Positions 21,205 to 28,844 of a stretch of 64,000 nt of DNA are shown here, piece by piece. This DNA is from Nostoc sp. S13 (GTDB lineage Bacteria; Cyanobacteriota; Cyanobacteriia; Cyanobacteriales; Nostocaceae). The position numbers and the translations under genes are program-made. The number at the start of each line of letters is the position of its first letter. Positions within the stretch are counted from its first letter, which is position 1. The DNA is taken from NCBI RefSeq assembly GCF_029379315.1, contig NZ_JAQYWQ010000001.1, positions 62,001 to 126,000 of the forward strand, in the 5' to 3' direction. The notes below the pieces were generated by a model that did not search any database, was not told the DNA's origin, and saw only the letters and a program-made list of their open reading frames with translations.

Positions 21205-21430
21205 CTAAGTACAACATTTCATTAATTCATAGCAAATTCTCCGCGTCCCTCCGCGCTTCCCTCTGCGCCACGGCAGTCGCTACAACGGGGGGAACCCCCC
21301 TTCGGGTTCACCAGTCGCCTACGGCGGGAAACCCGCCTACAGCGCTGGATTCACCGCAACGCGCTGCCTCCACTTTGCGTTTAAATTTCAACCCTCAATT
21401 CGCCACGATTTTACGCAAACCTGTACTTAG
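21205..21430. repeat. 226-bp dispersed repeat, copy 1, ends CTAAGTACA/TGTACTTAG
   Basis: Near-identical to 51959-52184; perfect 9-bp terminal inverted repeat; reaches the leuS stop codon. Confidence 0.8.
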
Positions 21431-24072
21431 CTGACTACAAAATTCACCAGCTTTCCAAGCACCACAATTACCTTTTTAATCTCTTTCCCTTCGATGTAAC
21501 GCTGGGCAATTTCTGATTCACGGGCATACTTCTCCTGTGCTGCTGCATCTGATTGCGCTGGCACTTGAATCGCGCCGCGAGTTTTACCATTGATCTGAAT
21601 TACCAAAGGAATTTCATCAGCTACCAAAGCAGCAGGGTCAAATGATGGCCAAGTTTGAGTGTGAACTGAATCACTTTCAGCCAATAAATGCCATAATTCA
21701 TCAGCAATGTGTGGTGCAAAGGGTGCTAGTAACACCACCAAAGCCCGAATACCTTCTGCATAAATTGGTGAATTTTTCCCGTCGGCATCAGTTAGGGCAT
21801 TACTCAACTTCATCAATTCGGAAATAGCTGTGTTGAATTGATATTCATCTTCCACATCTTCTGTCACCGCTTGAATAGCCGTGTGAATCGCCCGCCGCAA
21901 CTCCTTTTCTGCCTTAGTTAAATCAGATTGGGCTTTCTTACGGGATACCCCAGCCTTTACATAATCTGTCACCAAACGCCAAACCCGATTTAAAAAGCGG
22001 AATTGTCCTTCCACATCGGCTTCATCCCATTCCAGGTCTTTTTCTGGCGGCGCTTTGAACAAGATAAACATCCGCGCTGTATCTACACCGTATTTGGAAA
22101 TTACATCTTCTGGTGCTACACCGTTGCCCTTTGATTTAGACATAGTGGCGTAGAGACGTTGCAATGGTTCACCTGTATCGGGGTCACGGGGATCGGCTGG
22201 ATTTACCAAATTAGAAGGAATCCATTTATCTTTCCCGCCCTTGTTGGGATTTAGGTAAGTTAAACCCTGTACCATACCTTGAGTTAACAGGCGTTGGAAG
22301 GGTTCGTCAAAGTTCAATAATCCTCTGTCCCGCAACACCTTAGTAAAGAAGCGCGAATACAACAAATGCAAAATCGCGTGTTCAATCCCACCTACGTACT
22401 GATTAACTGGCATCCAGTCATTGATTTTACTGGAATCGAAAACCTGTTGTTCATTCTTAGCGTCAGGGAAGCGCAAGAAATACCAGGAGGAATCAATAAA
22501 AGTATCCATCGTGTCGGTTTCCCGCTTCGCCGGAGTACTGCAAGTTGGACAAGGCACATTTACCCAGCTTTCCAACTGAGTCAAGGGTGAACCGCCACGT
22601 CCAGTAAATTCCACCTCTTCCGGCAACTGTACTGGCAAATCTTTGTCAGGCACAGGCACTATCCCACAGTTGGGACAGTGAATTACAGGTATCGGTGCGC
22701 CCCAGTAACGCTGCCGCGAAATTAACCAATCCCGCAAGCGATATTGCACGCGCACTTTACCAAAACCTTGTTGTTCGGCATATTCAATTATTGCTTGTTT
22801 AGCATCTGTGGAAGCCATACCAGTAAAAACCCCAGAATTAATTAAAATTCCTGGTTCAGTATATGCCTGGTTATATTCAATTTGGATGATTTGTGTAACT
22901 TCATCTATCTCTGATGTTGGAGTTAAGTCAAAATCTGCAACATCATCTGGGGAAGCAATCACAAAATCAACTGGCAAATCGTAATTTTTGGCAAACTTAA
23001 AATCCCGGATATCGTGTGCTGGTACACCCATCACTGCCCCAGTACCATACTCATACAGTACATAGTCAGCAATCCAAATAGGCACTTCTTCCCGTGTAAA
23101 CGGGTTAATTGCCACCCCACCTGTGGAGATACCCCGCTTAGGTTTGTCTTCAGAGGTACGTTCCAACTCACTTTGATTGGAAACTTCTTTAATAAAGGTT
23201 TCTACTGCTGCTTGTTGTTCTTTTGTGGTGACGCGGTTTGTTAAGGGATGTTCTGGTGCTAAGACTAGGTAGCTAACACCATAAACGGTATCTGGGCGTG
23301 TGGTATAGACACCGATTTTTTCATCTATCCCAATAATGGGAAATTCTAAGTAAGCGCCTGTAGATTTACCAATCCAGTTTGCCTGCATCAACTTGACGCG
23401 TTCCGGCCAACCTGTCAACTTATGCAAGTCATTGAGCAATTCTTCTGCGTAGTCGGTAATCTTGAAAAACCACTGCCGCAATAATTTACGCTCAACTATT
23501 GCCCCACTGCGCCAAGAACGTCCTTCGTTATCAACTTGCTCATTTGCCAGTACAGTTTGGTCAATGGGGTCCCAGTTTACAGCTGCTTCTTTTTGGTAAG
23601 CTAACCCCGCTTGCAAAAACTGCAAGAAAATCCATTGTGTCCATTTGTAATAATCAGGTGAACAGGTAGCAAGTTCGCATTCCCAATCGATGGATAAACC
23701 AAGACGCTGCAATTGCTGCCGCATCTGGGCAATATTTTGATAAGTCCACTTTGCTGGCGGTACACCACGGTCAATGGCGGCATTTTCTGCTGGCAAGCCA
23801 AAGGCATCCCAACCCATTGGGTGTATTACCCGATACCCTTGCATTCGCTTGAGGCGGGCAATCACATCTGTAATCGTATAATTACGGACGTGACCCATGT
23901 GTAGGCTGCCCGATGGATAAGGAAACATGGATAAAGCGTAAAATTTTGGCTTGTTACTAGCTGTCGGTATCTTATCTAAGCCAAGTTCTACCCATGTTTT
24001 TTGCCATTTTTCCTCAATTGCTGCTGGGTTATATCGAGAATCAACAGAATGACCTATTTCCAATGCTTTCAT
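21427..24072 (-). CDS. leuS: leucyl-tRNA synthetase
   Basis: [23 protein letters not shown] (HIGH), [16 protein letters not shown] (KMSKS), full-length 881 aa. Confidence 0.97.
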
Positions 24073-25126
24073 GCCTGTTACACTTTACTGCTACTAAATT
24101 TCTAGTATTTACACTTATTAGTACATTTAAACTACTATTTTGAGGGAATTATCTGTCTAGTAATTTTCTAATTTGATTTATAAAATAAATTTACTATGTC
24201 TGTTTATTTTCTATTTCTCTCTATCTTATATCCCGAAAGTTCTTAGAGTATTAGTCTAAGAACTTTGACTATATACTCCCCATGAAAATAGACATAAAAA
24301 AAGTTCTCAGGCTTAGGATGCCAGGAACAGTTTGTATTCGGGTCGGAAACTGATTTACTGGTTTACCAGTCTGATCGCTATTTCAAGGTGCATCTTAACC
24401 TTGTGTAAGTTAAGCAGGTTCTGTTGGTCATATCGGTAACATTAGTGAAAAGTTAAGCCTGTGAGTCTTTTGTCAAGTATTCGTGGCAATTTCAGGCGAA
24501 GTTAGTTTTGTCAACAGTAATTAAATTTAGCTTCTTACTGAGTTTTGAGAACAAGGGTAAACAATGCTTTTAAATATGATACGTAGGCATCGCTGACTTA
24601 AAAATTGTGTTTCTAACCCCGATTTTTGATAATTTTTTAAGTACTATTGCTTATTGACAAAAAATAGTTTGTAATCTTAACTTGTCACCAATATGCTAAA
24701 CCTGCGAACGAGAAATATGATGTAGTCAGCGAGGAAGCTCTGATCTGAGGTTGACAGCAGGATTGCTGGTACACAAAGAGTTAAAGGTCAAAATATAGAA
24801 AAAAAATTAAGAATGTGATTAAATATCATAACAATCATTTTGAGTCGCATCTCTAGCTCAGAATAAAAAGAAAGGGATTCAGGGATTGACTGAGCAGGTT
24901 ATGCTCTATCCTGGCAACAGGAGGATACTCAAGGTCTACCAACAGTCGCAAGAATAGTAGTGGTGCATTCCAGTTATGTGGGCGATGTCTAACGATAAGC
25001 CCTTGAGGTTTGGGGGTGACGCTCATTTATCGCTACCGCTTGCGCTAACCACGGGAACCACCATCGCTCTTAGCATCTCCCAAGGGGAGAAGACTACGAC
25101 CCACTCACCGCTACGCGTCTACGCAT

Positions 25127-26255
25127 AAAAAAACCCCCAGTGGGTGTTAGCCAACCAGGGGAGCTAGTTATCAGGGTGCATCTACCAATTAAATGTTCTC
25201 AGGTTGAACACCATACTCCGGATAAATTTGTACAACCGTCAGTTATTTTTTTAAATAAAAAACCCCAGTGAGCGTTAGCCAACCAGGGGAGTGAGTTATC
25301 AGGGTGCATCTACTAATAATCTTTTCTAAGGCAAATGGGTAGCTACCGGATAAAGTAGCAAAGGTTGAAGTTGTTATTCTTTATCAGAGAAAAACCTCAG
25401 AGGGGTTAGTTATCAGGACAGACTTACCAATCAAATGACCGGTGCGTTGCCTTAAAAAATGGGTGTGTCAGATATGATTACTGCTTTAGGACTTATGCAG
25501 AAGAGATCCCCCAAACCCCTGAAAAAGTTCGCTCTTAGAGTTCCCTTTTTGAGGGGAGCCAGTGCCTTACTGTTAGCGTAGCGGTAGCAACATAGGAAGG
25601 CGCAGGGTAGGAACTACTGAAAGGATTCCCCGACTTGTCCCCCGACTCTTAAAGCTTGCTAGCAAGAGCGTGTTTGAACAGGAGAAGCAACTGGCGTGGA
25701 CTTATTCAGATATAGATTTCAGGTTTTCAGTGCCTAAGTTTTGTACTTATTGAGTAATAAAAAAACCCCCAGTGGGTTTTAGCCAACCAGGGGAGCTAGT
25801 TATCAGGGTGCATCTACCAATTAAATGTTCTAGGTTTAACCACCATGCTCCGGATAAATTTATTAAAAAATTAATTCTTGTCGTGTGTCAAAAAAACAAG
25901 AGCGGATATTAACTGAATTAGGGGAGTTAAAGATCAAGGTACATCCATCAATTATTGAACCTGGGATGACTACAAGTCACGAGTGTGCGGCTTGTAAAAA
26001 TCAAGTATTCTAGGGTTAAGCACTATTTTCTGGTACGAGAATATCTGCGTCAGAAGTTGCTGTTGTTTGCCAAAATTGAAAAAAACCCCCAGTGGGTGTT
26101 AGCCAACTAGGGGAGTTGAAGATCAAGGTGCATCTACCAATTAAGTGTTCTAGTCTTAAGTAATCCGATCCGGATAAAGTTGTAAAGGCAGAAAAAGCAA
26201 AACAACTAGAATCAGAAACATTCAGGGGTGGGATGCATCTAAGTTATCAGAGGGA
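25127..26255 (+). ncRNA. nsiR1: tandem/dispersed repeat array upstream of hetF, probable NsiR1 small-RNA array (about 6-7 units, several degenerate)
   Basis: Repeated block (A)nCCCC(C)AGTG(G/A)G..TTAGCCAACCAGGGG..TTATCAGGGTGCATCTACCAATTAAATGTTCT at 25127, 25257, 25757 and 26081, degenerate at about 25390, 25890 and 26222. TCCGGA follows at 25217, 25849 and 26169 (ACCGGA at 25345). Position upstream of hetF as known for NsiR1. Confidence 0.8.
25217..25222 (+). promoter_or_regulatory. DIF+-type TCCGGA motif of the repeat array (others at 25849-25854 and 26169-26174)
   Basis: TCCGGA lies about 35-40 nt before the start of the next repeat body, matching the -35 position of DIF+ promoters. Confidence 0.65.
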
Positions 26256-26318
26256 GCGAAAAATCGACTTGAAACTTTCGCGTTTCAAACCAGATTTAGG
26301 AGGCGGACAGGAGAAACT

Positions 26319-28844
26319 GTGACTCAGGAATTCCACATTTCGGTAACTCCTGTAGGGCAAAATGACTACTTGGTGCGGACGGAACAAGTTGCGCCGGGAG
26401 TACCGTTGGCAGAAGAATTGGTGACTTGGCCTGTAGCTGATTGGTTGATCGCTGCTGGGCATTTGATGAATGATCCGTTGAAGTCGGTGTTGCAGGGAGA
26501 TATATTCGCCTCTGGCGGGAATGAAAGCGATATCGCCAGAAACTCTGTAAATTTGGTGGCGTTAGGTCAACTATTTTATAACGCCCTGTTTCAAGGCACT
26601 CTCAGAGATAGTTGGATTACTGCCCAAGGTATTGCCCAAAACCACCAACAAGTACTACGCTTACGGTTGGGGCTAAAAGATATTAGATTAGCTCGTCTGC
26701 CTTGGGAAGTGATGCACGCAGGCGATCGCCCTCTGGCTACTGGGCCTTATATCGCTTTTTCTCGCTTCCAAAGTGGAATTTTGGGGGCTTCCCCTTTGCG
26801 ATCCCTGCGGGGGGCTACGCCTACGCCAAATATGCCCACACCACGAGAAGAAGGTGGTGTGAAAGTATTGATGGTAATTGCTTCTCCCTCCGATCAAGTC
26901 CGTCTTGACTTACTGAAACAGGAAGCGATCAAACTGCAAGCAGAACTTCACCGTGTACCACGACTTGCTGAAGGTAGCAATCGTTTCCCAGAAATTGAAC
27001 TCACTGTCTTAGACCAACCAGGACGGGAAGAACTGACGCAAGCTCTAGAACAAGGTAGATACCACGTTCTACACTACTCTGGTCATAGTAACTTCGGCTC
27101 TAATGGCGGAGAAATTTATCTTGCTAGTCGCAGAACTGGCTTAACGGAAATCTTAACTGGGGACGATCTGGCAGGTTTGCTCGTCAACAATAACATCCAA
27201 ATGGCAGTGTTTAACTCCTGCTTGGGGGCGTACACAGCTGCGTCTGATGCCTCTGGAGATACTGGCGAACGAAACCTGGCAGAAAGTCTGGTGAAGCGCG
27301 GAATTAGCAGCGTTTTGGCTATGTCAGAACGGATTCCTGATGAAGTGGCGCTGACACTCACACAATTGTTTTACCGTAACTTGAGTCAGGGATATCCAGT
27401 AGATTTGTGCGTAAGTCGGGTGCGCCAAGGATTAATTTCTGCCTATGGTTCTCATCAGATGTACTGGGCATTACCGATTTTATATCTCCAGCGAGAATTT
27501 GACGGTTTCTTGAGCCAGGAAACTGACTTATCCGAAAGTGCAGAGTTGCTGAATCAGTATAGTTCGCCTTTAGGGGCAACTTCTACGATGTACTCTAGTA
27601 TGGCAGATGATTCCGAGATGCCTTTAGGAATGGAGGAAATGATTCCTTCTGGTTTGACACCTGACTCTTCTGGGTTGGACTGGCTAGGTGAAGATACTTG
27701 GGGCGATCTCGTTGATGAAATTGAGTATGATGACCCAAGTTATGAAGAAGATTCTGCTATAGTTTCGGATTTGTTTCGTCAGCTAGATAACCAAAAAGCT
27801 CCAACTGAACTGGATCAACAAATTCACGAAAATAGTCTTCAGCAAAGGCAGGTTTCAGAGGAAATAACTTCTTTGCAAGAACAAGCAGATTTGTGGGGAG
27901 AAGCCCCAGCACCACCACCTCAAGTTGCTGGGAACTTTGCAGGAAATTGGCAAAATTCTGATTTTTCGCATAGGCGTAGCCCGCCGCAGGCATCGCAACC
28001 AGCCCCAGCAAGAAATCGTACCCGTCACCGCAAATTATGGCCAATTGTTGGCATTGTGGGAATTAGTGCATTAGCAGCTGCGATCGGTTTAAATTGGTGG
28101 TGGCAAAATCGACACCAAGTAACTCTGCCTAATATCCCAGTAATTCCCAGTCAGTCTCTACCCATTCAAAAGCAGCAAAATATCGATTTACAGACAGCAC
28201 AAACTGGAATTGTCGCCGCCACCGCTACGGAAAAATTGAGCCAGGGCGACTTGCAAGGTGGGTTGTTAGCTGTAGAAGAACTACTTAATCGTGGCGCACT
28301 GGCTGCGGCTGATACTGCCCTGAAACTGATTCCCAATAAACAAGCTGATCAGCCATCTGTGAACTTTTACAAGGGACGATTAGCTTGGCAATCTATCCAA
28401 ACTGGAGACAATAACTATAGCGTCGATGATGCCCGCCGTTACTGGGAAACTGCTGCAAAAGCTAAACCAGAATCGCTTTTGTATAATAATGCTTTGGGAT
28501 TTGCCTACTACACAGAAGGCAATCTAAATCGAGCCAATGATTCTTGGTTCAAGGCTTTGAATTTAGCTCTCAAAGAACAGAAGACAGACTCAACATCTAC
28601 AGTACCTAAAGATGCTTTAACTTCCTATGCTGGGTTAGCTCTGGGACTGTATAAATCTGCACTTAGTCAATCTAGTGGTAAGCAGACACAATATCTGAAT
28701 GAAGCGATCAAGTTGCGGCAATTGGTTCTGAAGTCTGATTCAGTAAATTTCCAGGTAGATAAATTAGCTAAAAATTGGCTGTGGACGGAGAAGGCGATCG
28801 CAGATTGGCGATCGCTCCTTCAGGAAAAAGGTGAAGAACAGTAA
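26319..28844 (+). CDS. hetF: HetF, CHAT-domain caspase-like heterocyst differentiation protein
   Basis: VTPVGQNDYLVRTEQVAPGVPLAEELVTWPV, CHAT core YHVLHYSGHSNFG and VFNSCLGAY, TM segment and TPR-like C-terminus; NsiR1-like array upstream. Confidence 0.9.
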   Translation: MTQEFHISVTPVGQNDYLVRTEQVAPGVPLAEELVTWPVADWLIAAGHLMNDPLKSVLQGDIFASGGNESDIARNSVNLVALGQLFYNALFQGTLRDSWITAQGIAQNHQQVLRLRLGLKDIRLARLPWEVMHAGDRPLATGPYIAFSRFQSGILGASPLRSLRGATPTPNMPTPREEGGVKVLMVIASPSDQVRLDLLKQEAIKLQAELHRVPRLAEGSNRFPEIELTVLDQPGREELTQALEQGRYHVLHYSGHSNFGSNGGEIYLASRRTGLTEILTGDDLAGLLVNNNIQMAVFNSCLGAYTAASDASGDTGERNLAESLVKRGISSVLAMSERIPDEVALTLTQLFYRNLSQGYPVDLCVSRVRQGLISAYGSHQMYWALPILYLQREFDGFLSQETDLSESAELLNQYSSPLGATSTMYSSMADDSEMPLGMEEMIPSGLTPDSSGLDWLGEDTWGDLVDEIEYDDPSYEEDSAIVSDLFRQLDNQKAPTELDQQIHENSLQQRQVSEEITSLQEQADLWGEAPAPPPQVAGNFAGNWQNSDFSHRRSPPQASQPAPARNRTRHRKLWPIVGIVGISALAAAIGLNWWWQNRHQVTLPNIPVIPSQSLPIQKQQNIDLQTAQTGIVAATATEKLSQGDLQGGLLAVEELLNRGALAAADTALKLIPNKQADQPSVNFYKGRLAWQSIQTGDNNYSVDDARRYWETAAKAKPESLLYNNALGFAYYTEGNLNRANDSWFKALNLALKEQKTDSTSTVPKDALTSYAGLALGLYKSALSQSSGKQTQYLNEAIKLRQLVLKSDSVNFQVDKLAKNWLWTEKAIADWRSLLQEKGEEQ
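26798..26826. repeat. dispersed palindromic repeat inside hetF (copy 1)
   Basis: gcgatccctgcggggggctacgcctacgc; related intergenic copies at about 19809, 35499 and 59443. Confidence 0.75.
27968..27996. repeat. dispersed palindromic repeat inside hetF (copy 2, opposite orientation)
   Basis: gcataggcgtagcccgccgcaggcatcgc. Confidence 0.75.

Follow-up and report, generated by a model that had tools for sequence, protein, structure and literature searches.

A compact NsiR1 small-RNA array divergent from hetF in Nostoc sp. S13, and NsiR1-like copies at other loci of its genome

The window analysed here (i.e. the whole 64-kb stretch of Nostoc sp. S13 DNA) contains hetF and, upstream of it, a tandem array of short repeat bodies, with leuS as the next gene past the array (Table 1). 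An Rfam search identifies the array bodies as NsiR1 (RF02399): four units match the family (lowest E 6e-13; 58.2–74.5 bits versus a gathering score of 39 bits), all four on the minus strand and thus divergent from hetF, and no further match at E ≤ 1 was found in 24072–26400. This agrees with an earlier note on this DNA, which had recognized an NsiR1-like array upstream of hetF and had set an alignment of the units to NsiR1 as a check. We number the units U1–U7 from hetF outward, by orthologous positions in the Nostoc clade. Judged from the sequence, the locus is a genuine, ordinary NsiR1 array of a known kind with four complete units (U1, U3, U5 and U7). A reading of the units on the plus strand is ruled out by both the strand of the Rfam matches and the direction of the terminators.

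Table 1. Features of the hetF–leuS region, with positions counted from the first nucleotide of the window
Feature	Position	Strand	Support or remark
leuS, leucyl-tRNA synthetase, next gene past the array	21427–24072	-	
U7, intact distal NsiR1 unit	25126–25187	-	RF02399, 74.5 bits
DIF TCCGGA at -35 of U7	25217–25222	-	
U5, intact NsiR1 unit	25254–25315	-	RF02399, 58.2 bits
DIF variant TCCGGT at -35 of U5 (plus strand ACCGGA)	25345–25350	-	
U4, relic, DIF absent	~25368–25429	-	40-nt repeat family, 75% identity
Interruption between U4 relic and U3	25440–25745	.	contains interspersed repeat at ~25485–25565
U3, intact NsiR1 unit, trans type CACCCTGATAACT	25758–25819	-	RF02399, 73.9 bits
DIF TCCGGA at -35 of U3	25849–25854	-	
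U2, relic, DIF absent, terminator hairpin lost	~25889–25950	-	20 bits (clade profile)
45-bp insertion at the former U2 promoter/body junction	25954–25998	.	absent from relatives (alignment)
U1, hetF-proximal NsiR1 unit, nsiR1.1 position	26078–26139	-	RF02399, 67.2 bits
DIF TCCGGA at -35 of U1	26169–26174	-	
Conserved hetF 5' leader (the '26222 body' of the earlier note)	26205–26318	+	clade and wider hetF alignments
hetF, 841 aa, CHAT domain	26319–28844	+	orthologues have the same upstream array

Read in the sense direction, the intact units share one layout: TATCCGG[A/T] at -35, a conserved -10 element, a seed, a G+C-rich hairpin and a T run. The -10 element is AGAACATTTAAT-like (AGAAAAGATTAT in U5), and the 5' seed reads T[G/A]GTAGATGCACC. 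The bodies are of two types, i.e. one of U1's own (CACCTTGATCTTCAAC) and another shared by U3, U5 and U7 (CACCCTGATAACT); U1, of the CACCTTGATCTTCAACTCCCC type, runs antisense to the hetF leader. Each intact unit ends in a Rho-independent terminator (hairpin plus U run) with folds of -13 to -19 kcal/mol. The terminator hairpin is lost in both relics, and folding of U2 gives no terminator stem; the orthologue of U4 in locus L057 scores 34 bits.

The DIF motif lies exactly at -35 in all four intact units, as TCCGGA in three and as TCCGGT in one. TCCGGA occurs four times in the window, and three of these occurrences are -35 sites of the array. By sequence, all four units fall into the DIF+ (DIF1) class, which has TCCGGA near -35 with one mismatch allowed (PMC6133370). 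The earlier note had regarded the body at 25257 as the only intact one with a consensus motif and had paired it with the TCCGGA at 25217. That hexamer is instead the -35 element of the unit at 25126–25187, while the unit at 25254–25315 has TCCGGT, and four units rather than one are complete. TCCGGA is a palindrome and is therefore blind to strand, so the earlier reader missed the strand and paired motifs with the wrong bodies; the strand can be read from the terminators but not from the hexamer. Six of the proposed bodies (at about 25127, 25257, 25390, 25757, 25890 and 26081) are present, as is the gap of roughly 300 bp that interrupts them, but the one at 26222 has no RF02399 match at E ≤ 1. 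Two units (U2 and U4) are indeed degenerate, whereas U1, U3 and U7, which the note also counted among bodies with a degenerate motif, a degenerate body or no motif, are complete.

Promoter motifs are strongly conserved at orthologous positions of the Nostoc clade: U1 has TCCGGA in 30/30 copies, U3 has TCCGGA in 28 and TCCTGA in 2, U7 has TCCGGA in 40/40 (some clade genomes carry several U7-type units) and U6 is mixed. U5 has TCCGGT in all 28 assignable copies, which indicates an inherited old variant and not decay. One-mismatch motifs also occur in near-identical units elsewhere, i.e. TCCGGT in five units of locus L176 and TCCTGA in nine units of locus L239. Their presence on recently amplified units suggests that such DIFs are probably active.

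The array very probably consists of four complete DIF-driven units, each with its own -10 element, seed and terminator, together with two units that are dead throughout the clade, and acts in a manner similar to that of PCC 7120. This reading builds on the units and their strand, motifs, terminators, conservation and positional orthology, and on the presence of HetR and HetF genes (a HetP gene is also present in the genome). In PCC 7120, every NsiR1 unit is opposite to hetF (PMC8406250). The DIF promoters there are switched on in future heterocysts in a HetR-dependent way; NsiR1.1 represses the hetF mRNA that it overlaps, and NsiR1.4, of the inner type, represses alr3234 (PMC9045159). By analogy, cell-specific expression and targets would be as follows: (i) in developing heterocysts each unit would give rise to an RNA of ~60 nt, dependent on HetR/HetZ as in PCC 7120; (ii) the short, single-stranded 5' end of this RNA would serve as the seed; (iii) the U1 RNA, antisense to the hetF leader, would block hetF translation and thereby raise HetR; and (iv) U3, U5 and U7, with the other seed type, would share targets and act on them in trans. 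Published work disagrees on how strong the cis effect is, as promoter-gfp fusions in PCC 7120 showed little change when nsiR1.1 was inactivated (PMC8406250). For the trans branch, a genome search with the alr3234 start context ATGTATCAGG, which was inferred from mutations described in PMC9045159, gave 13 matches, none of them at a hetP-like gene, and a HetP query retrieved hetP (66% identity) and no clear alr3234-like paralogue. An alr3234-type target was thus not found, and we infer the trans branch only by analogy.

The dead U2 probably reflects the position of the hetF promoter. The hetF transcription start site of PCC 7120 is at -256, inside nsiR1.2 (PMC8406250), and the U2 position was probably not kept as a small-RNA gene because the hetF promoter sits there.

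Between U1 and the GTG start of hetF lies the element at 26222, which is ruled out as an NsiR1 unit and is the conserved hetF 5' leader. Alignments of 32 clade loci and of a wider hetF locus set indicate that several leader parts are widely conserved: a block GGATGCATCTAAG-TATCAG, a hairpin TTGAAACTTTCGCGTTTCAA and, upstream of the GTG, TTTAGGAGGC. The hairpin is formed by TTGAAAC (26269–26275) and GTTTCAA (26282–26288) around a TTTCGC loop (TTGAAAC-TTTCGC-GTTTCAA). Likeness to NsiR1 is limited to TGCATCTA and TTATCAG, in swapped order. It is conceivable, if rather doubtful, that the leader is a retained NsiR1-binding site through which all copies repress hetF in trans, which would add to the PCC 7120-like action proposed above. 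The leader sequence GGATGCATCTA pairs with the seed UAGAUGCA in a duplex of -17 to -24 kcal/mol (shuffle p 0.008–0.19 by unit, which are modest values uncorrected for several comparisons), GATGCATCTA is retained in most of the families shown and NsiR1.4 of PCC 7120 partly regulates hetF (PMC9045159). However, GATGCATC is palindromic, and the core is altered in L239 (CCATCTAC) and L107 while their seeds are unaltered. The leader may offer the NsiR1 seed a weak site for action in trans, but the statistics are weak and we do not rely on it.

Several lineages have no hetF-linked units: in L108, L111, L114 and L118 (Nostoc spongiaeforme and relatives) and in L123, none was found within 4.5 kb upstream of hetF. 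The hetF leader differs in these loci, and their genomes carry NsiR1 arrays elsewhere (e.g. the arrays in L176 and L177). In the genome of L114 (G248), one array near opcA has as its first unit one of the U1 type, with TCCGGA, and a second array lies near a thioredoxin-like gene and aroA; these gene names are putative and were read from translations. Such lineages offer a natural experiment for telling cis from trans action.

These arrays also bear on the view that only U1 matters, by acting in cis as an antisense RNA against the hetF leader, and that the distal units are residual with little function. The position and promoter of U1 are the most constant features of the array, and the copy number of the distal units varies. 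Yet seed, DIF and terminator are kept in U3, U5 and U7 across the clade, a separate target is known for NsiR1.4 in PCC 7120 (PMC9045159), and the lineages named above keep NsiR1 arrays away from the scanned hetF upstream region, with a U1-type unit with TCCGGA included in one such genome's array. We consider a role for U1 alone very unlikely and retain the reading of four acting units.

Whether the array is eroding or inherited was addressed with 80 hetF loci from named genomes, whose upstream DNA was scanned with an iterated profile; clade units were assigned to orthologous positions by promoter and body. The nearest of these loci is L074 of Nostoc sp. NOS(2021) (94%). Every unit found in the 80 loci is oriented opposite to hetF, and the distance between U1 and the hetF start is 177–189 nt in nearly all hetF-linked Nostocaceae arrays. 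The clade layout is U1, dead U2, U3, dead U4, U5 with TCCGGT, U6 and U7. U2 and U4 are decayed throughout the clade, and the U2 relic lies ~320 nt from hetF in relatives too. Complete units number 4–7 per locus among 30 Nostoc-clade loci, including this one with its four.

L074, L103 (CHAB 5824) and L048 (JL33) share the same orthologous positions and the same TCCGGT at U5; unlike in this strain, their U2 has no 45-bp insert. U6 is missing here and in L103, and is present in L074 and L048. The interruption between the U4 relic and U3 is ~130 bp longer than in L074, and the extra DNA carries the interspersed repeat, which has 31 matches in its own genome, itself included. Relative to the nearest relative, the only changes are thus the loss of U6, the 45-bp insert and the ~130-bp insertion. 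It is highly improbable that the array is partly eroded and being lost, with a single functional unit (25257). U2 and U4 are dead and U6 is absent relative to relatives, but the pairing of motifs and bodies behind this idea used the wrong strand, and complete units still number four. The clade shares both TCCGGT and the dead units, and the intact bodies with their -10 and DIF elements are conserved in it. Instead, as far as comparison of sequences can tell, the array is the clade-wide compact version and is not collapsing. The strain-specific erosion suggested earlier thus gives way to a reduced layout common to the Nostoc clade (30 loci); the accompanying expectation of fewer copies than the 12 of PCC 7120 holds, but with four complete units and not one.

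The NsiR1 array of Nostoc/Anabaena sp. PCC 7120 is reportedly the subject of Ionescu 2010. As in that array (RF02399; Brenes-Alvarez 2022, PMC9045159), the units in Nostoc sp. S13 lie in tandem upstream of and opposite to hetF, and every complete unit has a DIF promoter and a terminator of its own. In both arrays the unit nearest hetF diverges from the inner ones, which resemble one another, and the hetF promoter region falls at unit 2. By contrast, PCC 7120 has 12 units, while here four are complete and the inner units are not all identical; the TCCGGT of U5, the two dead units and the interspersed-repeat insertion further distinguish this array from that of PCC 7120. Nodularia spumigena CCY9414 has a longer array at the same locus, with 12 repeats upstream of hetF (PMC3610870).

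NsiR1-like copies also occur at three other syntenic loci of the same genome. At the first, one copy lies on the plus strand with lgt on one side and a cobM-like gene (tetrapyrrole methylase) on the other (C65:34303–34353; L005:1501–1551). It has TCCGGA at -34 (-34/-35), an almost invariant CCTGGTT after the seed and a terminator with some compensatory changes. With two mismatches allowed, the pattern GGTAGATGCACCCTGGTTAAG is present in 18/18 genomes of the same family and in 92/245 genomes of the order, some of the matches in other families being other copies. In stretches of 3–4 kb, cobM accompanies the copy at 21/21 loci checked and lgt at 18/21; TCCGGA is present in all but three of the 21, and these three have TGCGGA. 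The three belong to genomes of another family (G045, G187 and G207; L224–L226), in which the lgt-cobM copy is the only NsiR1 match. Syntenic copies extend to several further families.

The second locus is an array beside exoD, with two units on C169 (21501–21952, minus strand; L171) and one on C84 (6151–6208, plus strand; L172). Both lie at contig ends, and the array is broken by the assembly. In relatives (L173 and L174), 3–4 units with a 147-bp period and CCCGGA or TCCTGA at -35 lie between exoD and a gene of unknown family; other genera have one unit with a DIF-like motif. At the third locus, two copies 153 bp apart lie downstream of gatB (C31:38647 and 38800, plus strand; L007:1501 and 1654). 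They are without DIF, and their upstream stretch is conserved (CGCATAC...ATATGCTGTGGT); one or two such units also occur in L180, L251, L252 and L253. A genome search with the complement of the 5' end (≤3 mismatches) returned only NsiR1-type copies and C168:15920.

In the literature examined, a set that lacks the principal NsiR1 publications from 2010, 2019 and 2020, the lgt-cobM, exoD and gatB copies are not mentioned, and we claim no priority for them. NsiR1 is likely a multi-locus small-RNA family with a shared seed (GUAGAUGCACC) and mostly DIF promoters, made up of the hetF array, the lgt-cobM copy, the exoD copy or array and the gatB copies without DIF, and its output and target control would be independent of the length of the hetF array.

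In brief, our results suggest that four NsiR1 units linked to hetF can be enough for a heterocyst-forming strain. They also suggest that TCCGGT-type DIF promoters are kept by selection, and counts of perfect motifs would understate the number of functional copies. The multi-locus family matters more than the hetF array and is the part most worth pursuing: should the copies at lgt-cobM, exoD and gatB prove to be expressed, NsiR1 depletion studies in PCC 7120 and relatives may have involved several loci with the same seed.
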